Shown here: positions 2-64,000 of the stretch, one piece after another
Position numbering within the stretch: position 1 is the first letter of the stretch
Layout of the letters: each line of letters starts with the position of its first letter
Assembly (NCBI GenBank): GCA_008330645.1
Contig: VLTN01000042.1
Location: 62,001-126,000, forward strand
Source of the DNA: Cafeteria roenbergensis
Taxonomy: Eukaryota; Sar; Bigyra; Bicosoecida; Cafeteriaceae
Length of the DNA: 64,000 nt
Direction of reading: 5' to 3'
Translations under genes and position numbers: made by a program
The notes under the pieces: generated by a model
The model's database searches: none
What the model saw: the letters and a program-made list of their open reading frames with translations, nothing else
What the model was told of the DNA's origin: nothing

Positions 2-1420
2 GACGCCACCAGAGCTGGTTCCGCCGACAGCCGGCGTCGAGCCGAGGCCGCGCGCCACGGCGCACCAGGCTCGCTCGCCCAGCTGGTGCCGGTGGCGCCC
101 CCGTCGTCTGTGGGGCTGGACCTCGCCGCCGAGCCGTTCGGCTCTGCCGACTACCTCGGCGGCGGCGGCGGCGGGGAGCAGGCCAGCCGCCGTAGCGGCA
201 AGCGCCCCAGAGAGAGCGGCGCGGGCGCCGGCGGCGCTCCGGGCCAGCGCGGCGACTACGCCGGCCACCTGCCCCACGGCGGGCATGGCGGGCATGGGGC
301 CGGGGGCGCGAGCGCTGGCGGGGTGAGCGCCCCCGCCGTGCTGGACCACGGGCAGATCGACGGCGTGAGCGACGCCGGTCCCCTGGCCAAGCGCGTCTGC
401 CCTGCCACGTCATCCGCGCTCTCAGACTCGGGCATGTGCGGCGACGGCTGCGGCGGCGGCGGGGCTTGTGGCGGGGGGTCGGCCTCCTCCGTCATCGCCA
501 CCACGCGGTGGCGTATTCCCGATTTCGCCGCCGACAGGCAGGCTGCTGAGATGCGCGGCGAGACTGCGGGCCACGGCAGCGCCGACCCGGCGGCGGTGGC
601 GGCGGCGGCGGCGGCGGCGGCTGAGCGGCAGCACCACCAGCGCCACGCCCCGCAGCGCCGCCCCGCTGACGAGAGCAGGGCCGTTGACGACGAAGTGGAC
701 GACGACGTGGACGACGAAGTGGACGACGGACGCCGGGAGCACAGGGCCGGCAGAGCCGCCGAGTCCGCCTCCAGCACGGGGGGCCGGAGCCTCGCCCTAC
801 ACCACGGCCGCGGGGACGGGGAGGGCCTCGCGGGGGCCCGTGACAGGTCCTCGGCCGGCCGAAACCGCGCCGGAGGGGCCACGCCCGTGCCCGCCCCGCT
901 GAGCATCTCATCCCGCTCGGGAACCGGCGGCGGCGCTGGCGCTGGCGCTCGCGCGCCCGGCCCGCAGTCGGCAGAGCTGATCAGCCGGCTGGCGCGCCAA
1001 GACGCGCTGATGATGATGCAGAGCCAGCAGATGTCGGCCATGCAGGAGGAGCTGCGATCGCTGCGGTCGTTCATCGAGGTGCTGGCCTCTGCCACGCAGC
1101 GCCAGCAGCAGGCGCCGCTGCGGCCGTCGGCGGGCGACGTGACCCCGGAGACTGGAACGGCCGAGGAGAGGCTGGCCGCCAAGGCGCGCGCTCGCGCCCC
1201 TAGCGGGGCCTGGAGCCAGTCGGGCTCTGCCCAGGCACCCTCCGGCCCGGGCAATGCGGGGCCGGCCGCCTGTGCCGAGGCAGCCGCCGGCCCCGGCTGC
1301 GCCGCCGCAGACCCCTTCCCAGCGCCCCCGGCTGCCGGCCTCGCCGCCCCCGGCCCGCAGTCCGCAATCATCGCCCCAAACTCCCTCTTCCGCGCCTCCG
1401 CGCTCGGCATGCACTGCTGA
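2..1420 (+). CDS. Disordered coiled-coil protein, 5' end outside window
   Basis: The reading frame is open from base 2 to a TGA at 1418-1420, so the window holds the C-terminal part of a longer protein or a last exon. No ATG that would serve as a natural start is seen near the left edge. The protein is low in complexity: glycine runs, a DDEVDDDVDDEVDD acidic stretch near base 690, and alanine runs. One ordered-looking segment near bases 970-1110 is rich in M, Q, L and E (for example LMMMQSQQMSAMQEELRSL) and is predicted by eye to form an amphipathic coiled coil. A basic KRPRE patch near base 200 could act as a nuclear signal. Function is not recognised. A comparably long frame on the opposite strand is judged a shadow, because it lacks the coiled-coil pattern. 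Confidence 0.5.
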   Translation, partial: DATRAGSADSRRRAEAARHGAPGSLAQLVPVAPPSSVGLDLAAEPFGSADYLGGGGGGEQASRRSGKRPRESGAGAGGAPGQRGDYAGHLPHGGHGGHGAGGASAGGVSAPAVLDHGQIDGVSDAGPLAKRVCPATSSALSDSGMCGDGCGGGGACGGGSASSVIATTRWRIPDFAADRQAAEMRGETAGHGSADPAAVAAAAAAAAERQHHQRHAPQRRPADESRAVDDEVDDDVDDEVDDGRREHRAGRAAESASSTGGRSLALHHGRGDGEGLAGARDRSSAGRNRAGGATPVPAPLSISSRSGTGGGAGAGARAPGPQSAELISRLARQDALMMMQSQQMSAMQEELRSLRSFIEVLASATQRQQQAPLRPSAGDVTPETGTAEERLAAKARARAPSGAWSQSGSAQAPSGPGNAGPAACAEAAAGPGCAAADPFPAPPAAGLAAPGPQSAIIAPNSLFRASALGMHC

Positions 1421-1966
1421 GCCGGCGCCAACATTGGCGGCCGCACACTGGGACGGTAACCGGTTCGCGCCAGCTGCAGGTCTATTCGACCCGCTTGTCG
1501 CTGTCGCCTTGCCGGAACCCCGCACCCCGACCCGTGCTTGCCGCCCGCCTGCGCTCTTGAGAGTGCGCCCGCCACCCCCCCCCCCCCCCCGCCTCCTATG
1601 GCCTAGTCCCGGGGCTATGGGGCGCTCTCATCTGCGCCGGCGATTATTTTCACGTTCATGTGTGCTTCCCGCGGTCCCCCCCCCTTCATTGCCCCGACTT
1701 CCGGTCTGTGCTCCTGGCTGGTGCCGCGCCGGCCAGCTTGTGGATTCCCTATACCCCCGTTCGCGTCCCCGTACCGCACCCTGCTTCGACCCTGCCGTCG
1801 TGCTGTGTGCCTCTTGTGTGGCTCCGAGCGGCGTGAAGAATGCTATGCGCGCTCCCAACCATGGTGGCCGCTGCAAGTGAATGTGCGCGGGCTGCGACAC
1901 ACGTCATCCATTTCGAGACGCTCGGAGCGTCGGCCGGGCCGGCACTCTGGCCGTCTGCGGGCAGCC
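1421..1966. other. Intergenic stretch with a long poly-C run
   Basis: No gene is seen between the upstream stop and the ATG at 1967. A cytosine run of about 18 lies near 1572-1590 and a shorter one near 1677. The segment is pyrimidine-rich on the + strand and probably holds the 3' UTR of the first gene and the promoter of the next. Confidence 0.4.
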
Positions 1967-4525: not shown

Positions 4526-4887
4526 GGCTGCCGCGCCAGGGGGTGGCGCGAGTGCCTTGCGCATCCCCGTCGTGCTTGGTCGGCAGAGCCGGCGCCCAGG
4601 CGTGGCGAACACCGCGCCCCACACCGCGACTGCGTGGGGGCCGCCCCCGTGAAGGAGGCAGCATGCGGAAATGGGCGCGCACGCTTGCCCCTCCCGCCGT
4701 CGCGGCGGCTGCAGCCTTGGGCGCCGATGGCGGTGCTGACGGCCGCTGTTCCGACCTGGCAATGCGGCGGGTCGCTGCAAGCGCCTCGACGCCCTTCTCC
4801 ACGACCTCACCGCTCGGAAAGTCTCGCCTAACCGCGTCCGTGCACCACGAGGCGCGTCTTTCCGCGGCGGTCGGTCTGTTCTCCGCC

Positions 4888-7671
4888 ATGGGGGCCGCTG
4901 AGCCGGGCGCCGCACAGAGGCCGCCCAGGCTCGCGCTCATCGATTTGCGCGGCGCCCGTGGGCCGGAGGACGTCGCTGCCGCGGTCGGCGACGGGGCTGC
5001 GTCCCTGCGCCTCCGCCTTCGAGCGGCAGCGGAGCGGGTGGGGGTGCTTGGCCCGCGTCCAGCGGCGTCAGCGGCGGCGTCAGCGGCGGAGGCCGCGTCG
5101 CGCCTGGCAGCGAGGCTGGACGTCGGCGCCGCGTCTGCGGAGGAGGCGCGTGTTGTGGTTGTCCTGCCCCGGCTAGAGCGGGGCACAGGGCGCGCCGTAT
5201 CGCTGCGGGAGGTGGAGGCCGCGGCGGCGGCGCTGGCTCTGCAATCCCGCCCTTCAGACGCAGACGCCGACGCAGACGCCGACACCCACCGGCCGCCAGC
5301 GGGGCGCTCCACCGGCGCGGGCCAGGAGTCGCTCGGAAGGCGCCAGCAGCGGCTGTGGGCGGCTCTGCGCCTCGCGCTGATGCAGATTGAGGTGGCCCCA
5401 GACCCATCAGCTGCCGGTCACACCCAGGCCGACCAGGACAAAGGCCGAAGGGCTGACAGCGACTCTGCGAAACCGCCCGCAGGAAGCGACGGGTCGTCGA
5501 ACTCAGCGGTGTCCATTGGCTCTGCCCAGGCTCTGCTGATTTCACACTTCGTCGCAATATGGCTGCAGGAAACTGAGCCCGCGTTGAGCGTGCACGCGGT
5601 TTCACGGACCCCGCCCCATGGACTGGTCCCGGTCAGCGCCGCGTCATCTGCGCTGCGGCCGCTCAGCCGACGCGAAACCGCGCGGGCATTTGCGTCGTTC
5701 GTTGCATGCGAAACCGACGCCGCAGACCGCGCCAGTGCCTCCGAGGCGGGCCGCGATGCAAGTGACGCTGCAAGCGACGCAGCAAGCGACGCTGCAAGTG
5801 ACGCCGGAAGCGACGCCGGAAGCGACGCTGGAATCGATGCAGCAAGCGACGCTGCAAGCGACGCGGCAACGCCAGTCGACCTTGATGGCTCCGACGCTTT
5901 GGCCGACACCGCTGGCCGTGGTAACTGGACGGCCGCCAGACCAGCCGGCACCTCCGCCGCAGCGGCGGCAGGGCTGGACAGCGGAGTGAGAGGGCCATCC
6001 TCGCTTGCGAGGCTGGCGCCTAGCCGCGCCGTGGCGGCGGTGGCGGGGAGTGCGGAGGCGGCGGCGGAGGCGATCGCGGCAGCAGATGGGGCGTCGCCTC
6101 AGGGCAGAGCCGCGCCCTGCAGTGGCGACGAGGCGGCTGGTCGGGCCGCGCGCCGATCGGCGCTGCTTCGCGCGATCGACGAGCGGGTGGATGCCGAAAC
6201 CGCGCGGCTGCGGTCGGCCCTGGCGCTGAGCGTTGAAGACGGCGCATCCGGCGCCGGCGACTCGGGCGCTGCTGCTGGCGGCTCGGGGGCTGCTGCTGGC
6301 ATGAGCGTGGCGCTGTGGAGTGCCCTGGCCGCGGCGGCGGGCCACGGTCAGCTGCTGCCTGTGCCGGGGCTCGCGGACCTTGGTGCCGAGACAGGCGGCG
6401 GCAAGGGGGAGGGGCCCTGCGAATACGAGGAGGGGCCCTGTGGAGACGAGGAGGGGCCCTGTGGGGACGATGGGGGGCCCTGTGAGGACGAGGATGCATC
6501 TCTTGGCCCCGCCCATGGCGGCAGTGGGGCGGGTCGGAGCGGACGGGCCGGCCTTGAAGCGAGCTCTGCCGGGGTTCGGCGAGAAAACAGCCGCGCTGCT
6601 GAGCCGGGCGAGGGCTTCGGCGACGCCGCCGCCGGCGGAACGGACCCGGCGCTGGAGGAAGAGGAAGAGGAGGAGGACGACGAGATGGCTCTGCCACACC
6701 GCGAAGTGCCCCGGCAGAGCCCACGTGAGGTGGCGTGGCCCGCAGGCGCCGAGCTGGCGGCGGTGGTGGAGGCAGTAACGCCCGCTGTCGGCGGCGCGGC
6801 GGCAGACGGGGAGGCGGCGACCACGCTGGCGGTTTCGGCTGTGTCAGGTTTCGTGGGGGAGCGTTGGCTGGTGCTCTCTAGGCCGAATACCAGCGCAGCA
6901 GACCCTGGGCAGCCTGCGGCGTCTGGTGCTGGTGCTGCTGGTGCTGCTGGTGCTGGTGCTGCTGGTGCTGGTGCTTCGGCGGCGGCTGCCCGGGCCGCTG
7001 CTGCGCTGCCCTCCAGCGCGGGGGTGCTGGTCCGCCCGGGTCCCTTCGTCGGCGAAGCGTTTCGCCGCCTGGCGGCGGACGAGAGCACTGTCGCGTGCAT
7101 GGAGCAGCGGTTTCGCGGCGTGCTGATTCGAGCAATGGGCTCTCGGCTGTGCGATGAGGTCGGGGCGATCGAGGGCGAAGCGCGGGCTGCCGGCAGAGCG
7201 GTGAGAGACGTTGAGGAGAGGTTCGCTGAGGCAGTGAGAGACGCCCAGGCGGCGGCTGCGGCGGCGGTTTCTGGCGCCGACGGCAGTGCGGACGCGCAGA
7301 GGGACGCGAACGAGCGCGTTGCCAAGCTTGCCATGGCGCGAGTGGACGTCGATGCGCACAGGGCCGGCGTGGCGTCGCGCCTGCAGGAGGCGGTGCGGCG
7401 CGCTGACGCCCTGCTCGCGATGCGGGGCTTGCTGGACGAGGGTCACGCGGCTCGCGTTGCTGCTGCGAGGGAGCAGGCCCAGGCGGCCGAGCTGGAGCTG
7501 CTCGAGTGTCTCAGCGACGGCACCGCCCGCAGCAAAACACACGCACCGGACGCGCCGCAGCGCGCGAGCTCGTGGTCCCCGGCCAGCCCTGGGGCGGCCC
7601 CCGCGAGCTCTTTGTGGCAGCCCGCGCAGCCACAGCAGGCAAGTGCGTGGAGCCCGCCCGAGCGCCGATGA
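4888..7671 (+). CDS. Repeat-rich alanine protein with C-terminal coiled coil, unknown function
   Basis: This frame is open for 927 residues from the ATG at 4888, which has a strong GCCATGG context. An in-frame ATG at 4663 would give 1002 residues. The N-terminal 130 residues (LALIDLRGARGPEDVAAAVG onward) look folded but match no family I recognise. The middle carries two in-frame minisatellites: an ASDA array (bases 5755-5870) and a GPCxxEE array (6412-6495). Glycine/alanine runs follow near 6925-6985. The last 190 residues are strongly helical, from FRRLAADESTVACMEQRF to ELELLECLSDG, and probably form a coiled coil. The start lies about 360 bases from the divergent stomatin-like gene, so a shared promoter is likely. 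Its stop precedes the RAD54 ATG by 160 bases on the same strand. Confidence 0.6.
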   Translation: MGAAEPGAAQRPPRLALIDLRGARGPEDVAAAVGDGAASLRLRLRAAAERVGVLGPRPAASAAASAAEAASRLAARLDVGAASAEEARVVVVLPRLERGTGRAVSLREVEAAAAALALQSRPSDADADADADTHRPPAGRSTGAGQESLGRRQQRLWAALRLALMQIEVAPDPSAAGHTQADQDKGRRADSDSAKPPAGSDGSSNSAVSIGSAQALLISHFVAIWLQETEPALSVHAVSRTPPHGLVPVSAASSALRPLSRRETARAFASFVACETDAADRASASEAGRDASDAASDAASDAASDAGSDAGSDAGIDAASDAASDAATPVDLDGSDALADTAGRGNWTAARPAGTSAAAAAGLDSGVRGPSSLARLAPSRAVAAVAGSAEAAAEAIAAADGASPQGRAAPCSGDEAAGRAARRSALLRAIDERVDAETARLRSALALSVEDGASGAGDSGAAAGGSGAAAGMSVALWSALAAAAGHGQLLPVPGLADLGAETGGGKGEGPCEYEEGPCGDEEGPCGDDGGPCEDEDASLGPAHGGSGAGRSGRAGLEASSAGVRRENSRAAEPGEGFGDAAAGGTDPALEEEEEEEDDEMALPHREVPRQSPREVAWPAGAELAAVVEAVTPAVGGAAADGEAATTLAVSAVSGFVGERWLVLSRPNTSAADPGQPAASGAGAAGAAGAGAAGAGASAAAARAAAALPSSAGVLVRPGPFVGEAFRRLAADESTVACMEQRFRGVLIRAMGSRLCDEVGAIEGEARAAGRAVRDVEERFAEAVRDAQAAAAAAVSGADGSADAQRDANERVAKLAMARVDVDAHRAGVASRLQEAVRRADALLAMRGLLDEGHAARVAAAREQAQAAELELLECLSDGTARSKTHAPDAPQRASSWSPASPGAAPASSLWQPAQPQQASAWSPPERR
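5755..5870. repeat. 12-base in-frame array (ASDA repeat)
   Basis: About nine and a half units of 12 bases, of the type GCNGCAAGCGAC, encode (A/G)SDA repeats in the unknown + strand protein. Changes are mostly synonymous or alanine to glycine, so the array is kept in frame. Confidence 0.85.
6412..6495. repeat. 21-base in-frame array (GPCxxEE repeat)
   Basis: Four units of 21 bases begin at 6412, 6433, 6454 and 6475. Each starts GGGCCCTG and encodes GPC followed by acidic residues. The regularly spaced cysteines between acidic residues could bind metal, but this is only a suggestion. Confidence 0.85.
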
Positions 7672-7832
7672 GGCGCCAGCCGCGCTGCGCGGGCAAATGC
7701 TCGCGCCGTTGGGCTCTGCCTGCTCGAATCGTGGAGCACTCGCCCGGACGCGCCCGCCCCCGCCCTCGCCCACACACCCCAGGACGAGACCGACGGGCCG
7801 CACCCGGTCCGGGACGGGGTACGCTCACAGGA

Positions 7833-10800
7833 ATGCGCAGGTCTCACGCGCCGAGCCAGCGGCGGCTGAGCGGCGGCACGTCGCCGCGGAGCGTCAACGC
7901 CGCTGCGGTGAGCTCGAATGTGCAACGCTGCGCGCGCCCGCCGCGCCCGCCGCGCCCCCCGAGCGCCACCCCGCCCCGCGCAGCCCGCGCCCGTCCGCGA
8001 CTGGTTCTCGCAAGCTTGCGCTGCCCGCCTGCGCCTCGCTGGTCGCTCGCCGCCGCGCTTCGTTGGCCAACCGCGGCCGCCGCGACTGCCGGTTTTCGCT
8101 CCGCAGATGGCCGAGGGCAGCATCCAGGTGGTGCAGGCGCCGATCCTCAGCTGCCTCACTGTGCCCAAGGCAAAGTTCTGCCCCCCCCGCGTCGCCAACC
8201 CGGCTGCCTTCGCTGCCATGAGCCAGCAAGCTCGGCGCCGGCGGGGCACGCTTGGCGCCCGCAAGCGCCTGCGAACCGGCCCGCTGCTCCTGGCGGCCAA
8301 GCGGCCTGCCCCTTCCCCGTCCGTCACGTCCGACGACGGGGCAGACGCGCCCAGCCCCGCGGTCGAGGCGCCCGAGCTGCCCAAGGCGGAGCCCGCGGCC
8401 GCCAAGCCCAGCTCTGCCGCGGAGGGTTACGACCCTGTGGTGCTGTGGGTGCCGGAGGAGGCCGGTGGGATCGCGGCCTGGGACGAGGAGGCTGAGGCCG
8501 TTCGCGCCGACGGCGGCATTCCGGTCGCCCCTCCCGGGAGCGTTGTGGTTGACGCCTGCGTGGGGCGGTTCCTGCGTCCCCACCAGCGGGAGGGGCTGCG
8601 CTTCCTATGGGACTGCGTGTCGGGCGTGCGGGTTACCCAGACGGGCCCGGGGGTCCTGGGCCTCGGCAAGAGTGGCAAGAGCGGGGACGGGGCGGACAGT
8701 GACTCCTCCAGCGACACCGATGCAACTGCTGACGCAACCACGACCACGGCTCGTCGCGCCGGCCGCGGCCGGGGCAGACCAGCCAAGGGCGGCGGCCGGC
8801 GCGGCGGGCACTCCAGCAGCGCTGCGGCTGCCGCAGCTGCCGCTGGCGCCAGCCCCGTTCGGCGGAGCAGCAGACGTCGGCGGGTCGCCCGTCCGCCCAC
8901 GCCCTCCGACGACGACGAAGAGGACACGGCCACAAGTAGCAGCGAGGACGAGAACGGGGACGGCTCTGCCGACGAAGTGGAAAGCGGCGGCGGTCGACGT
9001 GGCGCCAACGCAGCCGGTGGCGGCGACGGTGACGGCGACGGCGACGGTGGCGGCGACGGCGACGGTGATGCGACTGAGGACGAGGATGACGAGGAGGAGG
9101 AGGAGGAGGAGGAGGAAGCGGGGGCGGGGGGGAGTTCTGGCTCCGATCCGGACGACGACGATGGCGACACCGACGCCGGCGAGGACGACGGCGGCGACGC
9201 CCCCCCCTCCGCCCCACGGGCAGCCTTCAAGCCCCCAGCCGCAACCTCTGGCGGCGGCGGGAGCAGCAGCAGCAGCAGCAGCAGCAGCGGCGGCGGCAGT
9301 GGCGTTGGCGGCGCGGCCGCACCCCTTGCCGGGTGCATTCTCGCTGACGACATGGGCCTGGGGAAGACTCTTCAGAGCGTGACGCTGCTCTGGACGTGCC
9401 TGCAGCAGGGCCCCAACGGGTCCCCCCTCGCCCGCCGAGCCATCGTGGTCACACCCACCAGCCTGGTGGCGAACTGGTCTCAGGAGATTCGCAAGTGGCT
9501 CGGCGACCGCTGCCCGCACATCGCTCTGTCGGAGGCGTGTCGCTCCAAGGTGACGGCGGGGATCAGCGAGTTCCTGGCTCCCAGGGGCCCGCGGCTCCTC
9601 ATCCTGTCATACGAGACGTTTCGCATGCACGCCAAGCGCCTCACGGGGCCGGCGGCCGCCTCAGCCTGCGAGCTGCTAATCTGCGACGAAGCGCACCGCC
9701 TCAAGAACGACGAGACGCAGACAGCGCGCGCCCTCAGCGGCCTGGCCACGCTCCGCCGCGTGCTGCTGTCTGGCACCCCCATCCAGAACAACCTGGACGA
9801 ATTCTACGCTATGGCAAACTTCTGCAACCCCGGCGTGCTGGGGACGCCCAAGCAGTTCCACCGGCACTTTGAGTCGCCCATCCTGGAGGCCAGGGAGCCG
9901 GGAGCGTCGGACGCGGCCGTTGCACGCTCAGCCGTCGCCACCGAGGCGCTGAGCGCGGTGGTGAACCAGTTCGTGCTGAGGCGGACCAACGCACTGCTCT
10001 CCGACCACCTCCCGCCCAAGCTGGTGCAGGTCGTCGTATGCCCGCTGTCGCCGCTGCAGCGCCAGATGTACGAGGCGGTGCTCGCGACGGACGCGGTGCA
10101 GTCCATCCTGCGCGCCGCAGCGGCCAGGGCAGCGGCGGCGGACGAGGCTGCAGCGGCCGCTGCCGCGAGCAAACGCGGCAACCGCGACGACGGCAGCGAC
10201 GACGGCAGCGACGACGACGACGACGGCGGCGACGACAACAACGACGGCAGCGACGACGATGACGACGACGGCGGCGGCGGCGGCGGCGGCGCGCTCAGCG
10301 AAGCGGAGGAGGTCGATGAGGAGACAGCGGCCGCCATCGCAGCCGCTGCCGGCAGCTCCGGCCGCAAGGCCACGGGAGCTCTGCCCGTGATCAACACTCT
10401 CCGGAAGATATGCAACCACCCGTCCATCGCGCTGCAGCCGGCGGGGGACTCCCGCGCGGCGGGCGTGACGTCGGCGCTGCGCGACACCATGCTTGCGGTG
10501 TGCGACGTGCCCGACGCGCTGCGGGCGGCGGCCTCGGGGTATGGGCTCAGCAGGCGCCGCGGGGGCGGCGTGGACGCGTCGCTGGGGGGCAAGGTGAGCC
10601 TGCTAGCCAGCATGCTGGAGCTGATGCGGGCGCGGGGCACGGAGCGCATCGTGATCGTGTCAGTGACGACCCAGACGCTGGACCTGGTGGGGCAGCTCTG
10701 CCAGGAGCGGGGCTTCCCCGTGATTCGCCTCGACGGCTCCATCGGCGCGGGCAAGCGGCAGCAGCTGGTCGACCGGTTCAACGACCCCTCCCGCGACGAG

Positions 10801-12268: not shown

Positions 12269-12303
<35 letters not shown>

Positions 12304-42486: not shown

Positions 42487-42563
42487 GCTAGACCATGACG
42501 GTCTGCTCACGCTGGGCAAGGCAGATGGCTGGCCCAGGGCTTCTTGGTCGACGACACAACGCA

Positions 42564-49805: not shown

Positions 49806-50395
49806 AGGCCCCGGGCGCGCGGTGGGGTGGAGCAAGTCGAGTGTTGTTTTCTAGTGCCGAGGTGCTCGGCAGAGCCGCCTTGAGACTCCGGCAGCTGCTT
49901 GGAGAAACCCCGGCGTGCGAGGCCGAGCTTGGCAGGGACTGGATTTTGCGAGTGCCGGCATATTCCCAGGCGCGAGAGCATCTTCGATCGCTTATTGGGC
50001 CACCGCTGCATGGGGAGCTGGTTGTCCGGCCACAGCGACCAGAGGTTTCGCCTGGCGTGCGCATGAGGCACGGCACCCCAGACGCTCGATTGGACTTCCT
50101 TGTCCCTCTCACGACATGCCGCACGTGATACCCGCGAGCCAATTATCGAGAGCAGCGCCGCTGTCCGGCTGCAGCCGAGTCAATCACCCGCGCACACAGG
50201 CTCAGGCGTGCGCCCCTGCTCGCACGCCGCCAAAGGCGAGTTGCGCTTCGGCCCAACAAGTCGTGTGGCTGGTGCATGCTACAATGCCTGCGAGCGGGAC
50301 ACGGCTGGCTCGCTGGCCCTCCTTACAATATTGTGGGCACAGCTGATCGACAACAAGCCAGAGCTGCCGGCGTTCTAGGGCTCGCCAACAGCTTG
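49806..50395. other. Intergenic region upstream of PEX5
   Basis: Roughly 590 bases of lower GC lie between the PEX5 start and the stop of the giant minus-strand gene. Short frames exist but none is supported. It could hold the PEX5 promoter and a small 5' exon. GGCAGAGCC occurs at 49868. Confidence 0.4.
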
Positions 50396-53300
50396 CTAGC
50401 CAAGCGCGTCCCCTCGGTCAGAACCGGCCCCGGTCACGTCGACTGCGGCGCCAATCGATTCTGCCAGCCGGCGTCCCAGTGCAGCCCCACCAGGCGGGGA
50501 CGAGGGAACCGGCGAGGGCGAGGATGAGGCCGGGCCGGACGCCGGCGCAGCCTGGCCGCCTGGCTGCATCGCTGGCAGCGCGCCCTGCTGTGACTGCGGG
50601 CTGGAGGACTCCTCGCTCTGGTCGGCCATCGGGGCACTGGTGGAGGCTGCCGCCGGTGATGCGGCGGGCGAATCCACGGGTGCTTCCGCCACTGGCTGCG
50701 GCTGCGGCTGCGGCTTGGCGCCCCTGGCTGACGGTGCCGAATCGAACCGCCCAGAAGGCGCGCAGGGGTCGATACCGGCCAGCTCACCTCTGCCTCCTGC
50801 AGGAGCGGGCTCCACGTCATCCGCCGAAACCACGACGACAAACCGCTGCTGCAGGGGCACACCCAGCTCTGCGAGCGTCGGGGCCTTGCTCCCGGGCAGC
50901 CCGGCCGCCACGACCGACCCAGAGACTGCCGTACCGACGTGGCTGGAGCCCAGTGGGAGCTGGGTGTCCGTTGTTCCTATGGCGGTCACAGCCCTGCCGA
51001 TCCTTTCGCCGATGGCCAGGCAAAGGTCCTCCGGCGTCGCAGTGGCGTGCGCGGCAGCTGACAGCGACAGGGCAACCGAGCGGCGCTGTGTGCTCGGAAC
51101 GTCGCTCCACCAACGATGGGAGCAGCTGGGGCTGGCCGACACCTCTTGTTGAGCGAGTGAAGCAACATCTGGCCTCGCAGTGTCACTGGCAATCGCCCCT
51201 CCGGCAGGGCCCACTGACTTGGTCGCCGTGGTCTGCAGCGAGGACGCTCCCGACGAGGGTTCAGGCACAGCCGCCTGCGCGGGCGCGTCTGCCGACCCTT
51301 GCACGGACAAACACGGCCGTTCCGCTGAAGCCCGGTGCAGCGGTGCAGCCGGTGCGCATGGGGGAGGCACTGGCACCGGAGGGGGCACCGGCAGCGGTTG
51401 CGGCTCCGCCACGCCCGCTGAGCCGCCCTCGCTCGACAATGCCGATTCTTGCAGCTCAGCCCGAGAGTCAGCGGCGAGCTGCGCGCGCCCCTCTCCACGG
51501 TCTTGGGGCTTGGCAGGCGCCGACAGGGCGCTGAGGCCGGAAACGTCGATGCGGCCGACTGAGGGGTTCGGCCGCGGGCGTGGCTGCTCTTCGCTTCGCG
51601 GCTCGGCCTCGCGGGACGCGGCTGGCGGAGGCGCACCAGCGCCCGCGTGAAACCGCGCAGCGAATAACAAAGCCGGCTGCGACCTGAGGACATCATGGTC
51701 GTCAGCGCCGTCGCCAGCGCCTCCCGGGCCTGCGGTCGCAGCACCATTGCTTGCAGGGGAGGTTGCCGGGGGGAGCGCAGGCGGGCGCGCGCCCGGGCTG
51801 CGGCGGTGAACGACGCCAGGACAGCGTGATGCGCTCGTTGGGCGGGAGGCTGCGTCTCGGGGTGGGGTTGTGCGGGTGGCCGGCCCGTCGAAAGCAGGCG
51901 CCCTTGCTTGGGCCGGCTGGCTGGCTGCGTCGCTCGGGCCGGACTGCGGCACTGTTCCCGATGTCGAGGATGCGGCGCCGGAGCTGTCACTCGGTGCCGC
52001 GCCAGATGGCCTCGCTTTAGGGGTGTCGCCGCAGCTGTGGGCACTGAGCAGAGGCTGGCTGTCACATGGCGCGCCAGCCGTAGCCGGGTGAATAGTTTCT
52101 TGGACGCGCCCTGACGACGCTGCGTGCGTGGTCTCTCGCTGGGCCGTCGTAGGCACGCCGGCATTCTCGGTGGTTTTGACAGGGCCAGGGCTAGGCCGCC
52201 TGGAGCTGCCGGGCTGGCTGGGCAGGGCTTGGGCTGGTGCTGGTGCTGGTGCTGGTCGTGAGTCCGCCGCCGACTCGCTCCCTGACTGGGCCGCGGCCGC
52301 CGCGGCTGCCAGTGGCGTCACCGGAGAATCGCCCGCGCGTCCTTCTGCGCCCTCAGTTGCGTCGTCCTCACAGTCACTGCAACGTGCCGTTGCCGTTGCG
52401 CTTCCGTCCCTGGACCGCCCTGCCGACTCCGGCTCTGCCGGTGATGAGGCCATCGGCGGAAGGGCCGAGGTTGCGCCAGCGCTAGCACCAGCATCCACCA
52501 CGTCCGCTGAACGCGCGACGGTTGCACCACGCGTCAGGCGGTCAGGCAGGGAGCGGTTGTGCGGTGGCGACACCCGCTGATCAAGGGAAGACGCGAGACT
52601 TGCTCCAGGCAGACCGACTTCGTCAGCGCGGGAAGCGCCCAGACCGGAAGCGCCATAGAGCCGGTCAAAGAAGTCGCTCGTAGCTCTGCCTGGCGTCAGG
52701 GGAACGTCTGGTGTGTGCGTCGGCTCCTGGCTCAGGAGGAGGCGCGCAGCGCTCGCGGCCGGCCTTCCAGGAAGCGGCTTGCCGGGAGGGTCATTGGCAG
52801 GCGACGCTTGAGCAGAGCCTGGGTCTCTAGGCGGGACGCTGGTGGCGGAAGGCGGAGCTAGCTTGGCTGCTGGTGGCGTTGGCAGCCGGGCTGGACCTTC
52901 CCGGCGAATGACGCCGTTGGGGCCGCGCACAATGCGCCGAGGACTGGGCGCTGGCGCCGATGTGGTGGGGGCAGCGTTGCCCGACACGCTGACCACCCGG
53001 ACAGCTGAAACGGCTGCCGAGGACGACGACGCCGAATCGGCTTCCGGAGGCTCTGGTTGCCCGCTGCCGCCGTCGCTGCCGCCGCCCGCAAGACAGCCGG
53101 CCGTGTCTGCACCACAGGCAGCTCCTCTTCCACTCGCACTGCTCGACTGCCCAGCGTCGGCCGCAGAGAGAGGACTGGTCTTTGCGGGAGCTCGATCATG
53201 CCGCAAGGCAGGTTTGCGCTCCCCGCTGGCACGCGGTGAGGAGTGCGGCGCAGCCGGCCCGCCCCCGCGCTGCTGGCCGGGCAGCTCAGACGACCGGACC

Positions 53301-56300
53301 AGCGACGAGTCGTGACGCACCGCGAGTGCAAGCGCAGCAGCTGCTGCTTCCGCCTCCTCGTCCGGACTGAGGGCGCCAGTTCTGCCGAGCCCTGGTGCAG
53401 AGCTCGCTGTCGGGCAAGCCACTGCTGGCCCCGGCGACGCGTCAGCGCGCCCGCCAGCCGCAGGCACGCTCACATCGTGCACTTCGGCTCTGCCACACGA
53501 GCGGGCGGCGGCCGGCCCAGCAAAGCCGGCGGCTGTGGCAGCAGCGGCCACACCATCGTGATCGCCTCCTGCTGGCTCGGCTGTCCGGTCTGCCTTGGCG
53601 CGCCCCCTGCCCAGCTCTGCCCTGAGCTGGTCGATCGCAGCCGACGCATCCGCCAGATCCTTTGCGGCTTGCTCTCTCCGTGAAACCGCCTCCGAGGTCG
53701 CTGCTTTGAGCGCATCCACAGCCCCCTCCAGCGCTGCAGTGCTGGACCTCCAGCAGTCGATGACGTCACTGGCCACGACTCTGAGCGACTCCACCCTCTG
53801 GGCGGCCTTTGTGGCAAGCTGACGCGATGAAGCTACGCCTCTGAGCAGCGACCGCAGCGTTGAAGCGGGGACTTTCACCGGAACTAGGTGTCCGGCCGGT
53901 ATGGCGGCAACCCCAGCGAGGGACTCCGCGACTGCGCTCAGCTCCAGCTCAATGCCTTCGATGACGTCAGCGGCGGATCCTGCCACCGAAGCAACGCGGC
54001 CACGAAACCTGGACCTGAGAGGCGCGGCATCACCAGCCGCCCCTTCCAACACTGCCGCTCTCGCGGCTTCGCGCCCGCGGAGCAGATCGGAATCCTGGGC
54101 CGTGCCATGGTCCTCGCGTGGCGCGTTGCCGCTCGGCCGCCGCGTCCCGCGGCCAGGCTGCGCCGACGGCTCCTTGCTGGTGCTTGCAGCCAGGAGTCGA
54201 GACTCCAAAGCTCGCAGCCCACCTGCAGCCTCAGCCGACGGCGAAGCCATCCTTGCGCGAGCCCGCCTGACCACGCCTCGGCCTGGTGCCGAATCGGCGG
54301 TGGTTGGTATGGTGGCGGATTGGTCCGTTTCTCTGGACGCGACCCGATCACCCCCGCGCTGAAGGGCGGTTCCGGCGCCGGGGCTGCCCGCCGTCTGGTC
54401 GCCGGTACGACGCAGCTGCTGCGCGCTGCCGATGGGCGCCGGCGACCTGCCCAGGTTGCCCGCGCGCTGGCGCAGGGCGGTCGCTTCGGCCGCCGCCCCT
54501 CTGGGCGCGCCTTCGGCGGCGGCCCGTCGGCGTCCCGCTGCCAGCTGCTGCAGCGACGGAGGCATCCGTGCGAATGCGGCAGATGTGGCTCTGCCGGATG
54601 TTCGACCGGCCGACTGCGCCCCTCGTGACAAGCCCCCACGTGAAGCAGCCCCCGACCGGTGTGCAGAGCTTGCTCTGCCGCGCGAATTCCGCAGGCTCCT
54701 GGCTGCGGGGCCGCCACGCTGCTGATTTCGCGTGCCGGCCAGAGAGCGGGTCTCGCTGCCACTCCCCGCACCAGTGCCGGGAACTGCGCTGCCCGCCGGT
54801 TGGGACTGCGCAGTGTTGGCGGCAGCGGACCTGGCAGCCGAGAGCCCCGCGGCGGTGCCCCCCCTCGACCCACGCGCAGCTGTTGGGCGGATGCCCTGCT
54901 CCAGCCAGGCAAGTGCGGCTTTGGCCTCGGGCGACACAGCGGCGACATGGGCAGCTGCAGCAGCTGCCGCCGCCGACGAGGAGGCGGCAAAGCCCGTGGG
55001 CCCCATGGATTCGCTGCGGGCAGGGGCCCTGCGCGTAGGCCCAGCGAGGCCCCCCTGGCCGCTCAGCGGGCCGGGGGGGGTGGAGGCCGAGCGACTGTGG
55101 TGTCCGGCCGCTGCCACTCTACCGAAGTGCTCTGCTGCGACAGTTTGTGGGTCCGCCGGCCGCCTTGCGGCGGCCCCGGGCGAGCTGAGCGCTTTGGCTC
55201 GGCGCGCGCTCCTCGGCTGCGCGCCGGAGCTCAGCTTTGAGGACAGCAGCGGTGTCCGCGGCGCAGAGGCGGCTCTTCCGACGGATCGCTTCACCCGCCG
55301 TCCGTCTGCGACAGCAGAGGGCGAGGATGCAGCGGGCGGGAGCTGATCCCCGCGTGGCGCGACGGCAGGCTGGCGGAGGCCGCCAGCGGCAGAAGCCGGC
55401 GCGGGCGAGACAGTGTCGCTTCCAGCGGACACCCCAGCGCTACTTGCCGCGAGGGGAAGCACGCCACCCCCTGCCTTTGTCAGGGCGCCGCTTTCGCTGG
55501 CAGTCGTCGCTGGGTCGCAAGGAGCAGGTAGGCTAGCCGCCTCTAGCGTCGCAGGCCCCTCGGCGGCGTGTTCAGCGTCGGCAATGGCCTTGTGGCCGTT
55601 CTTTGCCTGCGCACCGGCACCCGAAGGCCGAGCAGCGCTTTGACGCTCCGCCTGCGACTTCTCGTGAGTCCCCGGAGGGACGTGGCCCATCCTGCTCCGA
55701 GCGAGGCGGCCCCGGTGCCGAGAGGGCGGGCTCTGCCGACGCGGCACCATTGCGGCGTCTGGGCGTGATCCTGCGGCGGCCGAGCTGTTGGCGTCACTGC
55801 CGGCACGCCCAGCTCCGGCTCTCGACAGCTTGCCTCCCGCGACTGCCACCCCACCCGAGGCCGCCTCTGGCCCCGGTGCAAGGTTGCCGCTGGGGCCGTC
55901 AGCAGCAGAGGGGGGGTTGGGGCCAGGTGTCGTCGCCATGCCGTGTGGCTGGAAGGACCCGCAAGAGGATCGGTGAACCGGCGATGCCTTGTCGGACGCC
56001 ACGCCGGCCCCAGGGATGCAGCTCTGCTTGGAGGGGGAGCCTAGTCGGGGCCTTGTTGCTCTGGCGGAGCCTCGGGCGTCTGTCTCCGGCGTCTCATCGA
56101 GCCCGAACGCGTCGCGCCACGTGGCCAGGCGGGGGAGGGAGCGAGCCGCTCTGCTGCCTTGGGGGTGAGTGGTCCTGCTGGCAGGGGAGGTATCCCTGGC
56201 GGGGGGCGAGTGCGCTGCGACGCCGGCGGGAGCAGAAATCGGCAAGCGGGTTGCAGGCTGCCCGCCGTCGCGACGATGTGTTTTGGGCACAGGCGGGGGT

Positions 56301-57467: not shown

Positions 57468-59494
57468 ATGCAGGCCACGAGAAGGCAGCATTGGCAGGCC
57501 GCATCCGAGACTTGCTCGAGACGGATGCTTCGAACAATTTCTGTCCTCGCTGTTACAGCAGCGGCGGCCTTGGTTTGGTCCGGCTCGGGCGTTGTTTCGG
57601 CTAGCTTACGCTCTGGTCCCCGAGCTGCAGTGTCAAGCAACCAAATCGGACACACGCCCTGCAGCAGTCAAAGCGCAAGCCAGTCGCTTTCAGCCGAGCT
57701 AGTTCGAGCCTCCCAAGCATGGGCAATGCTGGCGTCAGGGCTTCCGTGCTCAGTAGCCCGCGACAAGGAGTTTCACCGAGACGACTCCAAGGCTCTCGCT
57801 CTCGCAGTGCTGAGCAAAGGACGCTGCCCCTCTTGTGCGGACATCCCCCCTCGGTGCTCTTCCCAGGTGTACATCCCAGTCAACAGGAGCCAGCCAGCCC
57901 TCCACCGCAAGCCGCTCGACGAGCAGTCTGCATATCAGGTGAGGCCTGCAGCGAATTTGTGCTCGGCAACGGGATGGCGCGAGGTGCCTGAGGGGATGTG
58001 CCTTGACTACCTACTCCTCCTGCTTATCCCCAGGCCGAGGCCGCACACTGCGAGGCAATATACGCCCCGGGAAGAACCGACGCACAGGGCAAAGAGTGGA
58101 GCATCGAGGAATTTGCCTCCCTCCCACTTGCCGGTCAACAATTTAATGATGCCGAGCGCGACGCTCTCCTATCGCTAGTAGAGTACCCCAAGCCTTCCCA
58201 GAGACCAAAGCTTGCAGTTGAGGTGAATGCGTGCGACGACGGTGCTCCACCGCTCGCGCTGGTGGCCGAGCACTGGACGGCATTCGTCACCTCAGGAGGG
58301 CTCCAACTCGATCGGGTGTTCGCGGTATGTTCGGGAGCCACGCCAGCGAGCTGGTGTGCCAGCTTGGCAACTGCAGCAGCAATTTCCCGACGTGATGCAA
58401 TGAGCACGCGGCCCCACTGTCGCGGACTGCTGGCTGCGGCGCTTGTGGTTGACTTGCGGATGCGGTGGCCGAATGTTCGTTTCAGCAGCAGCGCCCCAGG
58501 AGGAGTGGTGGGAGGGGGGGCGTCGCTGCTGGAAGGGCCTGCGGCATGGGTGCTTGCCCAGCGCACCAAGCTGGCCGATGTTCAACCGGATGTCGATGCC
58601 GTGCTGGCTTCGGCAGCTGGGAGCACCCGCGGCACCGTGCCGTCGCACGGGCAGCTGGCTGGAGCAGTGATGGCTTCGAGCCTCGCATGGGTCCTCTCCA
58701 GCATGGGCGACGCGCGAGCTCCAGCACCTCTGCTCAGTTCGGTCAATGCTTCGCTCATGTCCGGGTTGTGGATGAGCGCCTACGCCAATCGTGTCGGCCC
58801 GGTGCGGCACGCCTACCAAAGCTCCAAGCTGCCGGTGCGGTTTCCTCTCGGCTGCCAGCACAGCGCTGAGTACGCGCGGGAGGTTGTCTTTCTTGAGCCA
58901 CTGGAGGCCCACTTGCGAAACCTGGCGTTTGTTGAGACACGGAACCCGATTGTCTTCGCACCGTATCGAGTCCTCCCCAGCTTGCCATCGGTCAAGGCGC
59001 GTTCCTACAGGCGCCGCATCCTCATCGACATCGGAGCGAACGAGTTCGAGCGATCACCCAGGTTCCTCATCGACATGTACGAGCCGTTCGCCCCCTTTGA
59101 CGAGGTTTACTTGCTCGATCCGCACCCCCTCTCCCCTTCCCCCTCCTACAGCGCCAGATACAAAATTCAGAACGTGCTGGGCTCGATCTCGATCGGCTCG
59201 GGCGACGACAGCGACCTGCTCGCTGCATTCGATCGCCTGAACATCAAGGCAGACGATTTCGTGGTGCTCAAGTTTGATGTCGACGAGGGGCCGCAAGGGC
59301 TGACGATGGAGTGGGGCTTCCTCAGGTACTTTGTGTCGTCAAAGTTGTTCTTGCTGGTCGACGAGCTGTTTCTCGAACTGCACTTCTTCTGGCCGTTAAT
59401 AGGATGGCATCACCATGCTCACAGTATGTGGGAGGCGTTCGACGCGATGCGGCAGCTGCGAGCTTGCGGGGTTGCCGTGCACGCTTGGCCATGA
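57468..59494 (+). CDS. Membrane-anchored FkbM/DUF7870-like methyltransferase-fold protein
   Basis: Exon 1 is 57468-57938 and exon 2 is 58034-59494, split by a 95-base intron (GTGAGG...TTATCCCCAG). The product is 643 residues. A signal anchor (MLRTISVLAVTAAAALVWSG) begins at residue 20; the ATG encoding it, at 57525, is an alternative start. The lumenal middle is cysteine-bearing (CPSCADIPPRCSSQVYIPVN). The C-terminal 170 residues have the SAM-fold order: RRRILIDIGANEFERSPRF near residue 487, VYLLDPHPLSPSPSYS, DFVVLKFDVDEGPQGLTMEW near 570, and LLVDELFLELHFFWPL near 600. The last motif is characteristic of the plant and algal DUF7870 group. The glycine loop is reduced to IDIGANE, so SAM binding is not assured. 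A role in surface glycan or lipid methylation is inferred from anchor and family. Confidence 0.72.
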
Positions 59495-59953
59495 TTGCAA
59501 TTGCAGCCACTGCTGCCCCGGTACTGCGGCAAGTGCGTGCGCGTCGCGGGTGCCGTTCGAAGGCATTGCCTTGCAAAGCAGCAACTGACATCGTTTTCAG
59601 TGCGGGTCGCGTGGCGCTTGGACACTCGCTGGCCCGGAGCGCAGCCACGATCGTTGCGCTGGTCGCGGCGGCAATCGCTGCTGTTGCAAGCCAGGCCACC
59701 CAAGAAGGTCACCCCACACACCACACGTCCCACGAGCGTGTCACCCAACTATCAGCCTTCAGTCACAGTTGGGAGGGCCTCACGCGCCAGGCGCGCAGGC
59801 GCGGCGCCTGGCCGTCGCCGCCCAACGAGCGCAAGCGCAGGATCCGGCTCTGCCAGCGGAAGGCAGCGCGTTCGCACCAAGCAGAAACGGAGCGCACTCA
59901 GCCAGGCCTGCCACCTGGCCGGTCGCGCTGCCCCCCCCGCCTCAGTCGTTGCC
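59495..59953. other. Intergenic region upstream of threonine dehydratase
   Basis: About 460 bases between two + strand genes. Overlapping frames on both strands have no support. It probably holds a terminator region and the threonine dehydratase promoter. Confidence 0.4.
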
Positions 59954-62161: not shown

Positions 62162-62476
62162 GCGCTGGCTCCCACGGAAACACGGCGATTTTGCGGTCTT
62201 GATTTGGCCCCAGACTCCTCCACAGCACCGGCCAGACCGCCATGCGCAGCCAGCTTTCCCGCCTACTTCCCTGTCCCGCTGCGGCTGTGTGAAGGGGCAG
62301 ACGGTGCGGCGAGCAGCGCTCTGCAACGAATATAGGCAGCTCACTTCCGCAGCTATCTCGCGCGCAAGCCGGCCCATGCCACGTGCGAACACGCCCATTG
62401 CATGAGAGTTTGAGTCGGCGCGGTGTTGCTCTGTGCCTTTCCGTGTAGTGGCGAGCGCAAAAGCTGAGAACAACTG
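62162..62476. other. Intergenic region between two + strand genes
   Basis: About 315 bases with lower GC (for example ATATAGGCAGCTC near 62330). No gene seen; probably 3' UTR plus promoter. Confidence 0.4.
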
Positions 62477-64000
62477 ATGCAGAGTTGCGACCGTCTTCAA
62501 CTCAGCAAGCGACTCTGCCGATCTGCGCTATTCACACTCGCGCTGTACGCACCCTTGAACCTCAGGGCGCCATCCGGCGGGGCGCCAATTGGCGACCTGA
62601 GAAGAATCGAGCGGCTAGTCGTCTCTGCGTCCCAAGACGCTTCGCCCAAGGCGCCGTTTCGGAGTGCAGTGGTGATGGCTTTGCAGGCCAAGGACTCGGG
62701 GGCAATCGCACGTCCCAACGGGCCGCACGCTTCGAGGCACGACGCAACCGCCAGTTCGGGTCAGCCTATGAGTGTAGGTCGCGACCCAAGTGCTGCCTGT
62801 GGCCCAGATGCCGACGAGGCAGCCGACCTTGCGGCGCAGCAACAAATGCTTGCTGAAGCCGCAGCGGCCTTCGCCGCGATGTCCTTCGGCGACGACGAGG
62901 CAGGCGCATGGCAAACAGACACACGGCATGCATGGGGCCAGCCCGCCGGCGAGTGGTCCTCCGAGGAGGTGGAGGACGAGGACGAGGAGACGACGGCTGA
63001 AGCTGACGGCTGGGCAGCGGACATGCTCGGCCCTGGGAGAACGGCCGGAGAGCGAACGCGTGCATCCTACCACGCGCGTCTGGCTGATCACCTCGCCCGC
63101 ATAGCCGCCTCCCGCCGCTTTGGAATCGACACCGACCTCCTCTTCAGCTCCGCAGGCGAAGCTCGCGGTGGCAACCCAGCGGCTCTGCCAGCCCTCCCCT
63201 TGCAGGGGCCTTCGCGGCTCACAGGAGCAACGCCGTTCAGCGTGGAGCACGACGCCTCCCTCAGCGAGTCAGCAAGTCCCACTCGGCTCAGCGCTGCTGA
63301 GGCCGCTGGCGCAGCTGGCGCTGCTGGCGCTGCCCTCAGGCCGGCCTGGTGGAAGACGGACGCCTCCCCGGCCAAAGCAGCCGAGTCGAGCGATCGCATG
63401 GGACCACCAGCCGGCTCGGCGATGTGTCGAGCCGCAGCGCCCGCGGTGGCGCTGCCCGACATGCAGAAGGCAATCAGAGCGAGAGCGTCTCATCGCAACA
63501 GAGCGGTGACGTCAGCTGCAGGGCGGGTGAAAGCTGATGCTGAGGCGGCCTGGTCGTCGTCTCTGCGGCCAGGCGCGACAGCCGAGGCCGAAGCTCGCGG
63601 CGAGGGCTTGTCCAAAGACAAGGCAGCGAGCGAGGACGAGCGAGCTGCGCGACGCATGCAGAGGCAGGCGCGGGCAGCGATTCGGGGAGGCGAGACGGCG
63701 TGCTCTGACGACAGCTCATCGGGCCCAGAGTCGCCGCACGCGGGGGAGGCCGCGAGCGAAGCCGGACGCGAGGACGGACGCGAGGACGGACGCGACGCAG
63801 ACGCGAGATCGACGGCGCACGGACTGCAGAGGGCCGTGTCACCCCCACAGTTGCCGGAGATGGTCGATAGAATGGGTGTTCCCCGTTTGGACGTGATGGT
63901 TGACTCGACGCTGATGTTCGGGAGCCAGCAGCCGTGGGTGGACGAGGTGCCTGCCCCGTACGCCCGGCCTGGCCAGACCGGCCAGCCGCTCGCTGGCAAT
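62477..64000 (+). CDS. Unknown protein, 3' end outside window
   Basis: A frame opens at ATG 62477 and has no stop through base 64000, at least 508 codons. Alternative in-frame starts are near 62672 and at 62768. The chosen start gives a basic N-terminus with a hydrophobic stretch (LCRSALFTLALYAPLNL) that could be a targeting signal. After 62768 the protein is acidic and alanine-rich (DEAADLAAQQQMLAEAAAAF; WSSEEVEDEDEETT) with one ordered helix, RASYHARLADHLARIAASRR. A short GREDGREDGRDAD repeat appears near 63765. No family is recognised. Minus-strand frames over the same bases are shadows, being full of arginine and proline and without motifs. Confidence 0.5.
   Translation, partial: MQSCDRLQLSKRLCRSALFTLALYAPLNLRAPSGGAPIGDLRRIERLVVSASQDASPKAPFRSAVVMALQAKDSGAIARPNGPHASRHDATASSGQPMSVGRDPSAACGPDADEAADLAAQQQMLAEAAAAFAAMSFGDDEAGAWQTDTRHAWGQPAGEWSSEEVEDEDEETTAEADGWAADMLGPGRTAGERTRASYHARLADHLARIAASRRFGIDTDLLFSSAGEARGGNPAALPALPLQGPSRLTGATPFSVEHDASLSESASPTRLSAAEAAGAAGAAGAALRPAWWKTDASPAKAAESSDRMGPPAGSAMCRAAAPAVALPDMQKAIRARASHRNRAVTSAAGRVKADAEAAWSSSLRPGATAEAEARGEGLSKDKAASEDERAARRMQRQARAAIRGGETACSDDSSSGPESPHAGEAASEAGREDGREDGRDADARSTAHGLQRAVSPPQLPEMVDRMGVPRLDVMVDSTLMFGSQQPWVDEVPAPYARPGQTGQPLAGN

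Follow-up and report, generated by a model that had tools for sequence, protein, structure and literature searches.

Three iterated DNA words dispersed through the nuclear genome of Cafeteria roenbergensis

Words in the 64-kb window

The stretch of C. roenbergensis DNA analyzed here (64,000 nt; hereafter, the window) contains ORFs for an SNF2 helicase and a histidine kinase, and exact copies of a nine-base word, GGCAGAGCC (W1), are scattered over its whole length on both strands (Table 1). A total of 50 copies was found, as compared to a mean of 2.95 and a maximum of 9 among 100 shuffles. An initial annotation of the window, made by eye, had reported more than 30 dispersed copies where base composition forecast only a couple; both statements agree with our counts, as all 32 of the starts listed are exact and the dispersed copies number 38. 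The remaining 12, likewise annotated before, make up a tandem array of 21-bp units in the helicase (RAD54) ORF. Two longer words, W2 (GCGAAACCGC) and W3 (GTCAGCTGAC), each of 10 bp, were also identified, and the window holds both the W2 core and W3.

The histidine-kinase ORF (34085-41761) had been described as the densest in W1. It is indeed dense, with 12 copies (15.6 per 10 kb), but an ORF at 4543-7671 with 5 copies (16.0 per 10 kb) equals it. A second copy of the kinase gene, which could have been used for dating the words, was not found by DNA search. An inverted repeat assigned to 12424-12441 proved to be a perfect palindrome over its inner 16 bp, the outermost bases being mismatched (A/C), and its left arm is a one-base variant of W1, AGCTCTGCC.

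Table 1. Positions of W1, W2 core and W3 sequences and associated repeats in the window
Feature	Position	Strand	Remark
W1 GGCAGAGCC	140..148	-	exact match
W1	749..757	+	exact match
W1	1223..1231	-	exact match
W1	4582..4590	+	exact match; absent from earlier list
W1	5518..5526	-	exact match
W1	6103..6111	+	exact match
W1	6687..6695	-	exact match
W1	6713..6721	+	exact match; absent from earlier list
W1	7712..7720	-	exact match
W1	8962..8970	-	exact match
W1	11208..11216	+	exact match; absent from earlier list
21-bp tandem array, SNF2-helicase ORF	11701..11951	12 W1, all -	omitted from sample enrichment counts
Perfect 16-bp palindrome GCTCTGCCGGCAGAGC	12425..12440	.	W1 at 12433 (+) plus one-base variant
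W1	12433..12441	+	exact match
W1	15627..15635	-	exact match; absent from earlier list
W1	19278..19286	+	exact match
W1	19340..19348	+	exact match
W1	21954..21962	+	exact match
W1	23070..23078	+	exact match; absent from earlier list
W1	23167..23175	+	exact match
W1	26234..26242	-	exact match; absent from earlier list
W1, histidine-kinase ORF	34805..34813	+	exact match
W1, histidine-kinase ORF	35149..35157	-	exact match
W1, histidine-kinase ORF	35228..35236	+	exact match
W1, histidine-kinase ORF	36159..36167	+	exact match
W1, histidine-kinase ORF	36983..36991	-	exact match
W1, histidine-kinase ORF	37868..37876	+	exact match
W1, histidine-kinase ORF	37940..37948	+	exact match
W1, histidine-kinase ORF	38042..38050	+	exact match
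W1, histidine-kinase ORF	38129..38137	+	exact match
W1, histidine-kinase ORF	38841..38849	+	exact match
W1, histidine-kinase ORF	39410..39418	+	exact match
W1, histidine-kinase ORF	39512..39520	+	exact match
W1	49868..49876	+	exact match
W1	52431..52439	-	exact match
W1	53486..53494	-	exact match
W1	54587..54595	-	exact match
W1	55729..55737	-	exact match
W1	59846..59854	-	exact match
W1	63181..63189	-	exact match
W2 core GAAACCGC	861..868	+	exact match
W2 core	5469..5476	+	exact match
W2 core	5596..5603	-	exact match
W2 core	5674..5681	+	exact match
W2 core	6196..6203	+	exact match
W2 core	6829..6836	-	exact match
W2 core	7107..7114	-	exact match
W2 core	7264..7271	-	exact match
W2 core	12060..12067	+	exact match
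W2 core	12138..12145	+	exact match
W2 core	12349..12356	+	exact match
W2 core	12727..12734	-	exact match
W2 core	16036..16043	+	exact match
W2 core	23614..23621	+	exact match
W2 core	37118..37125	+	exact match
W2 core	38562..38569	-	exact match
W2 core	38750..38757	+	exact match
W2 core	39316..39323	+	exact match
W2 core	46324..46331	-	exact match
W2 core	51649..51656	+	exact match
W2 core	53682..53689	+	exact match
W2 core	58837..58844	-	exact match
W3 GTCAGCTGAC, perfect palindrome	15982..15991	.	exact match
W3 GTCAGCTGAC, perfect palindrome	16207..16216	.	exact match
W3 core TCAGCTGA, full GT/AC flanks missing	49048..49055	.	core match

Enrichment over the genome and over background models

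The initial annotation had proposed a genome-wide count of W1, and had named a codon-pair or higher-order Markov model as a possible account of its frequency. In the 36.3-Mb genome W1 occurs 10,998 times and the reversed word 994 times; the corresponding counts are 2,499 and 249 for W2, and 428 and 43 for W3, where the reversed word is the only control and tandem-array copies are included. The over-representation of W1 is real and genome-wide, and at least three words behave alike, each being ~10-fold above control words. Another candidate, CAACTGCAA, was discarded as largely a local repeat.

Background models were applied to a 314-kb sample consisting of the window and 25 unselected 10-kb loci, with coding frames taken from a simple, in-house HMM in place of the genome annotation; loci chosen by their words (L001-L008 and L036) were excluded from enrichment counts. 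The sample has 120 W1 copies. Synonymous-codon shuffling yielded 12.4 coding copies (13.5 in a second run) as opposed to the 99 present, and the 21 noncoding copies compare with 3.5 expected. As annotated, W1 occurs in several frames and on both strands: all six frame/strand classes exceed the shuffle expectation, with 58 of the 99 coding copies in the codon-aligned frame, and 39 in sense and 60 in antisense orientation. The same shuffle gave 1.9 coding copies of W2 (31 present), 0.3 of its T form (11 present) and 0.5 of W3 (11 present). Neither class of model explained the W1 count, given that Markov chains of orders 1-5, trained on word-masked DNA, predicted 13-22 of the 120 copies, and a codon-pair chain predicted means of 13.3 (words masked) or 26.4 (words included) for the 99 coding copies. 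Among the encoded tripeptides, GRA is near expectation (132 vs. 127) and GSA is in excess (190 vs. 165 under a dipeptide model and 146 from composition), with 17 of the GRA and 41 of the GSA tripeptides using the W1 spelling; the GSA excess implies that some copies may have altered the protein as opposed to being respelled synonymously. Taken as a whole, these results show that W1 is a DNA-level signal, beyond what codon usage and protein sequence explain.

Word anatomy and regional density

Inverted-repeat arms are common to the three words. The center of W1 (GGC-AGA-GCC) is asymmetric, so that the word is not a perfect palindrome, and that of W2 is asymmetric as well; W3 alone is perfectly palindromic and has no loop. 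The core of W1 is strict and its end bases show graded preferences. The many one-base variants noted earlier are concentrated at the ends (167 vs. 64.9 expected), and the internal ones are only modestly in excess (274 vs. 222.6), as the decay of neutral copies would leave; the genome-wide count of one-mismatch forms (57,402 vs. 27,892) pools both kinds against a control unmatched in composition. In the sample, C-to-T changes are frequent at position 9 of W1 (52 vs. 9.1 expected) and position 2 of W2 (13 vs. 0.5). A third tolerated base, GGYAGAGCC, is not claimed, since its excess in the sample (9 vs. 1.0) shrank genome-wide to 667 vs. 580 for the reversed form. CpG deamination of a methylated ancestor was rejected, as the CpG form GGCGGAGCC is undepleted (25 vs. 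25.2) and no C5 methylase was found by the PF00145 search described below.

The bases flanking W1 are complementary in 43 of 120 copies (43.4 expected), and this lack of pairing covariation favors readout by a protein. Among end variants, the compensated AGCAGAGCT is enriched 1.4-fold, and the single changes AGCAGAGCC and GGCAGAGCT 2.9- and 6.0-fold, respectively. Around the 120 sample copies, base preferences are confined to the adjacent positions, and the flanks are otherwise unrelated; removal of similar flanks retains 97 of 132 occurrences, a total that counts the 12 of the kinase region twice. Neighboring copies within 300 bp agree in orientation in 27 of 38 cases (L036 included), for which tandem duplication is partly responsible.

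W1 averages ~1 per 3.3 kb and is strongly regional, with 12 copies in 110 kb (11 loci) on contigs C1-C9 and 70 in 140 kb (14 loci) on contigs C12-C38. GC content did not account for this (rho 0.07 over 31 segments). When the 42 longest of 71 coding segments of at least 300 aa were compared, the W1 density per 10 kb was lowest within Pfam stretches (1.5, based on just 3 copies), intermediate outside the domains of genes with Pfam hits (3.6) and highest in genes without hits (9.95); domain extents were the best among the stretches listed, and hits were accepted at E 0.001, at which one gene (L015:4464-7319) is under the curated cut-off. Such a distribution, uneven and tracking weak constraint, is no more in favor of selection than of neutral accumulation or drive. 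The words also co-vary regionally, and a single locus, L025, drives part of this: in 2-kb bins, with amino-acid make-up allowed for, the partial correlation of W1 and W2 was 0.35 (reached in 0 of 500 permutations), and without L025 it was 0.26 (1 of 500), the W1-W3 link was marginal (22 of 500) and the W2-W3 link was lost (104 of 500). Locus L036, chosen for its two W3 sites, has 15 W1 copies in 10 kb, as compared to a genome mean of ~3.

Candidate readers and origin of the words

No binding protein was identified for W1 or W2, and we know of no binding site that corresponds to either. When the entire genome was searched in six frames for a C5 DNA methylase (PF00145), no match was obtained at E 0.001; the search finds 10 of 14 prokaryote controls, and an intron-split gene could escape it. 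W3 is identical over all 10 bp to the symmetrical DNA of the solved MYF5 bHLH complex, an E-box (PMC11996681), and the genome encodes two HLH-domain matches (E 3.6e-9 and 2.2e-8). Judging from its sequence, W3 is a predicted bHLH-dimer site, although 11 of the 13 W3 sites in the sample fall within predicted coding DNA. Transcription-factor sites in coding DNA are unusual, and this was counted against a protein-site reading.

We tentatively favor, at somewhat less than an even chance, an explanation in which the words are dispersed protein-recognition sites that are gained mostly by synonymous change and favored genome-wide, resembling HIP1 but not belonging to it. Each word would be recognized in double-stranded DNA by a protein specific for its sequence, which for W3 would be a bHLH dimer. 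Sites would be created by point substitution. Within genes this would mainly affect tripeptides for which the word is a synonymous spelling, even where it requires rare codons such as AGA and TCT, and a genome-wide pressure favoring bound sites would hold the words far over background. That pressure is most likely weak selection in very large populations, with dispersed sites of architectural or regulatory binding as its target, and protein constraint together with some regional factor would set local density. In this account we infer that the words arose through substitutions, that proteins bind them, that the pressure is selective and that they have some role in the cell.

A mismatch-repair or conversion process, guided by a protein or a mark, might instead turn near-misses into words as by-products, as Elhai proposed for HIP1 (Elhai, 2015; PMC4390886); this is possible, but we think it unlikely. 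Density that follows weak protein constraint, co-variation of three words as a regional conversion rate would produce, and HIP1-like concentration of variants at the ends are consistent with it. However, near-misses are undepleted, the methyl-C form of the model would, on the negative PF00145 search, be without its enzyme, and no sexual cycle is reported for the species in its genome paper (PMC6972860), so that mitotic conversion or repair is the only kind known. Neutral, context-dependent mutation without any reader is decidedly unlikely: words do accumulate under weak constraint, in coding and noncoding DNA alike, but three unrelated words of 9-10 bases would be required, with 7-9 bases of context given the failure of the Markov models and the modest excess of internal neighbors.

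The other alternatives seem to us far less probable. An RNA or single-strand hairpin signal, very improbable in our view, would account for the arms and for C-to-T changes that retain G-U pairs at W1 position 9 and W2 position 2, but not for coding W1 in both orientations, the absence of covariation in the flanks, a compensated form that falls below single changes, or a W3 that lacks a loop. Descent from mobile-element copies, or from insertion or excision scars, is no more credible; copies are dispersed and ~28% of the genome is reported to be repeats (PMC6972860), but W1 flanks are unrelated beyond the adjacent bases, and the 10-bp W2 (31 coding copies, plus 11 of its T form) and W3 (11 coding copies) sites lie inside predicted open frames, which a bare 10-bp insertion would shift. 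As for codon usage, codon-pair bias or a protein motif, suggested by the codon-aligned majority and the GSA excess, it is refuted by the synonymous shuffle, tripeptide and codon-pair results, and enrichment in all six classes and in noncoding DNA leaves it almost no credence.

The likeness to HIP1 drawn in the initial annotation holds for dispersal, for occurrence on both strands, in all frames and genome-wide, and for deviations concentrated at the ends, but does not extend to membership. HIP1 (GCGATCGC) and the alternate HIPs of cyanobacteria are, as described for them, short, GC-rich iterated words with inverted-repeat arms and end deviations, as is W1 (PMC4390886). Unlike them, W1 and W2 have asymmetric centers and only W3 is a perfect palindrome; at least three words occur together, with W1 at ~1 per 3.3 kb and strongly regional; and the genome is a eukaryotic, nuclear one, with genes for dynein, formin FH2, SNF2 and SMC-hinge proteins. 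For a cognate methyltransferase, the PF00145 search, which covers the C5 family, gave no match. The bacterial USS/DUS and Chi words, 8-12 bases long and recurring in coding DNA about every 1-5 kb, are comparable; a sequence-specific reader maintains them, as is proposed here, but they belong to bacterial processes. A more speculative proposal, which we consider doubtful, is a HIP-like vocabulary in which DNA-bound proteins would bias repair or conversion to the sequences they bind; words of unrelated sequence would then spread jointly in regions of low constraint, and could mark host DNA as self against the AT-rich virophages and giant viruses of this flagellate.

Highly iterated words without a settled function are an open puzzle of cyanobacteria, and a eukaryote with three such words, among them a match to a known transcription-factor site, would mean that they are not tied to the biology of cyanobacteria, nor perhaps to a C5 methylase. 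Four strains (BVI, E4-10P, Cflag and RCC970-E3) have been assembled, and PacBio RS II reads are listed for them (45x for BVI; PMC6972860). These existing strain data could be used to measure word gain, word loss and base modification, and would thereby help to separate selection from word-favoring repair.

Abundance of three iterated words

The assembly containing the window, C42:62001-126000, comprises 36,303,456 bases in 167 contigs, and the window has a GC content of 70.2%; the assembly published for strain BVI of Cafeteria roenbergensis (now burkhardae) is described as having 170 contigs, 36,327,047 bases and 70.1% GC (PMC6972860). All 32 start positions listed in the initial annotation for the nine-base word GGCAGAGCC (W1) proved to be exact copies of it or of its reverse complement. 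The window contains 50 copies, 12 of them within a 21-bp tandem array and 38 outside it; dinucleotide-preserving shuffles of the window gave a mean of 2.95 and a maximum of 9. Genome-wide, with tandem arrays included, W1 has 10,998 copies, 5,553 of them on the forward strand and 5,445 on the reverse, vs. 994 for the reversed word, confirming the suspected enrichment.

An enrichment sample of 314 kb, consisting of 25 unselected 10-kb stretches and the window with its array masked, contained 120 copies, of which 99 were coding and 21 noncoding as assigned from frames predicted with a simple coding HMM. The excess, originally judged from a rough base-composition estimate, held against richer backgrounds. 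Markov models of orders 1-5 trained on word-masked sequence predicted 12.9-21.8 copies, and a codon-pair chain gave 13.3 (words masked) or 26.4 (words included) coding copies. Synonymous-codon shuffling, which preserves every protein and codon usage, predicted 12.4 coding copies, and 3.5 were expected in noncoding DNA. As the initial annotation had proposed, copies lay in several frames and on both strands: all six frame/strand classes exceeded expectation (41, 17, 16, 13, 9 and 3 observed; 3.3, 1.1, 2.3, 3.3, 1.5 and 1.0 expected, respectively).

When the 27,779 nine-mers expected three times or more were ranked by observed/expected ratio, W1 came second, behind a part of W2 (GYGAAACCGC) and ahead of a part of W3 (GTCAGCTGAC), two words also yielded by the over-represented-word scan. 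Their copies have unrelated flanks. Genome-wide, GCGAAACCGC (W2) occurred 2,499 times vs. 249 for its control, and W3 at 428 sites vs. 43. In coding DNA, W2 (31 vs. 1.9 expected), its T form (11 vs. 0.3) and W3 (11 vs. 0.5) were enriched; reversed W1 (7 vs. 9.0) and reversed W2 (2 vs. 1.9) were not.

Coding spelling and shape of the signal

Gly-Ser-Ala (GSA) tripeptides were written GGC TCT GCC in 41 of 190 cases, and GGC AGA GCC was the commonest spelling of Gly-Arg-Ala (GRA; 17 of 132), in line with the earlier remark that W1 forces rare codons such as AGA. The GRA total was at expectation (132 vs. 127, dipeptide model). Since GSA was somewhat above it (190 vs. 165, dipeptide model; 146, composition), some copies at GSA may have changed the protein sequence. 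On the whole, the word pressure targets DNA, exploiting synonymous freedom. W2 and W3, ten bases each, lie within predicted open frames, which argues against insertion of the bare words at those places.

Inverted arms are present in all three words (GGC-AGA-GCC, GYG-AAAC-CGC and the perfect palindrome W3). First- and last-base variants of W1 were enriched (167 vs. 65 expected), and variants at the inner seven positions showed a modest excess (274 vs. 223). C was favored to the left of W1 and G or A to the right, with complementary flanks in 43 of 120 copies vs. 43.4 if independent. The pairing double-change form AGCAGAGCT was enriched 1.4-fold, below the 2.9 and 6.0 of the two single changes. 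These unpaired flank preferences and the weak AGCAGAGCT led us to reject a hairpin reading; the pattern is the one expected if a protein reads the DNA as a duplex. W3 exactly matches the symmetrical DNA site described for a MYF5 bHLH co-crystal (PMC11996681), and two matches to HLH domains were found in the genome.

Distribution along the genome

W1 density was very uneven, with 12 copies in 110 kb at 11 sampled loci on contigs C1-C9 and 70 in 140 kb at 14 loci on contigs C12-C38. On C1, 66 of the first 100 forward copies listed lay below 420 kb and 34 from there to 1.22 Mb, which suggests domains of at least 100 kb. The 10-kb stretch L025 held 26 W1, 25 W2 cores and 10 W3 cores (six of them full sites), and nowhere else were the three words observed as densely as in its long frame. 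As the neighboring frame on the opposite strand is also dense, this looks like a regional feature. A 10-kb stretch of the C5 cluster picked solely for two W3 sites (L036) was rich in W1 (15 copies) and had just three W2 cores.

Per 10 kb, the 42 longest of 71 coding segments contained 1.5 W1 copies inside Pfam stretches (three copies in all), 3.6 in the rest of genes with a Pfam match and 9.95 in genes without one; ratios to synonymous shuffles were 6.5, 6.6 and 12.2, respectively. With amino-acid make-up allowed for, the words co-varied across 2-kb bins (partial correlations 0.35, 0.30 and 0.29, reached by 0, 0 and 1 of 500 permutations). After removal of L025, W1-W2 alone stayed clear (0.26; 1/500), W1-W3 was marginal (22/500) and W2-W3 was lost (104/500).

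Features observed in the window and in other genome stretches
Feature	Location	Observation
21-bp array	window 11701-11951	12 units, each containing W1; except in the last, units differ solely in the base right after W1 (A or C)
Array host	window 7918-12855	SNF2/RAD54-like helicase ORF
L025	1-10000 (C30:200001-210000)	Open frame of 2,786 aa that by eye looks disordered and of low complexity; no Pfam match in scanned part (1646-6817)
W3 cluster	C5:663000-883000	At least 13 palindromes in ~220 kb, among sites listed
L018 frames	3140-4717; 5647-7383	GAAACCGC core in identical context in neighboring frames, the second with sugar-transporter matches; looks like tandem gene duplication
L026	C31:100001-110000	GC just 57.7%, 78% noncoding (HMM), unlike other sampled loci
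L024, L029, L031		A single open frame spans almost all of each 10-kb stretch, with matches to dynein heavy chain, TIG-domain and DNA-PKcs; the exons are very long, in a genome of 70% GC
Contig C167		Small-subunit rRNA gene (bacterial Rfam family) adjoining frames resembling mitochondrial nad11 and nad1 by eye

Relation to HIP1 and candidate origin

The likeness to cyanobacterial HIP1 drawn in the initial annotation holds for behavior. We do not claim membership, because W1 and W2 are not perfect palindromes and the host is a eukaryote rather than a cyanobacterium. Openly licensed full texts on iterated eukaryotic words, Cafeteria genomes and bicosoecid motifs or methylation included no such report among the matches listed. 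Searched as whole-word strings, which misses those embedded in longer sequences, W1-W3 had a sole match in openly licensed papers, W3 as the MYF5 site. The main texts of two Cafeteria genome papers mention neither palindromes nor methylation; "motif" occurs 12 times in one, denoting virophage promoters in the excerpted passages.

The main rival to protein recognition is repair or conversion favoring the words, which accounts equally well for the tie to weak constraint and for the regions shared between words. Elhai's HIP1 model requires a methylase (PMC4390886). A genome search restricted to the C5 class found no C5 methylase domain at E 0.001. We favor the proposal that the three words are dispersed recognition sites for several DNA-binding proteins. 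Such sites would be gained by substitution and then favored genome-wide, probably through weak selection in the very large population of this organism.
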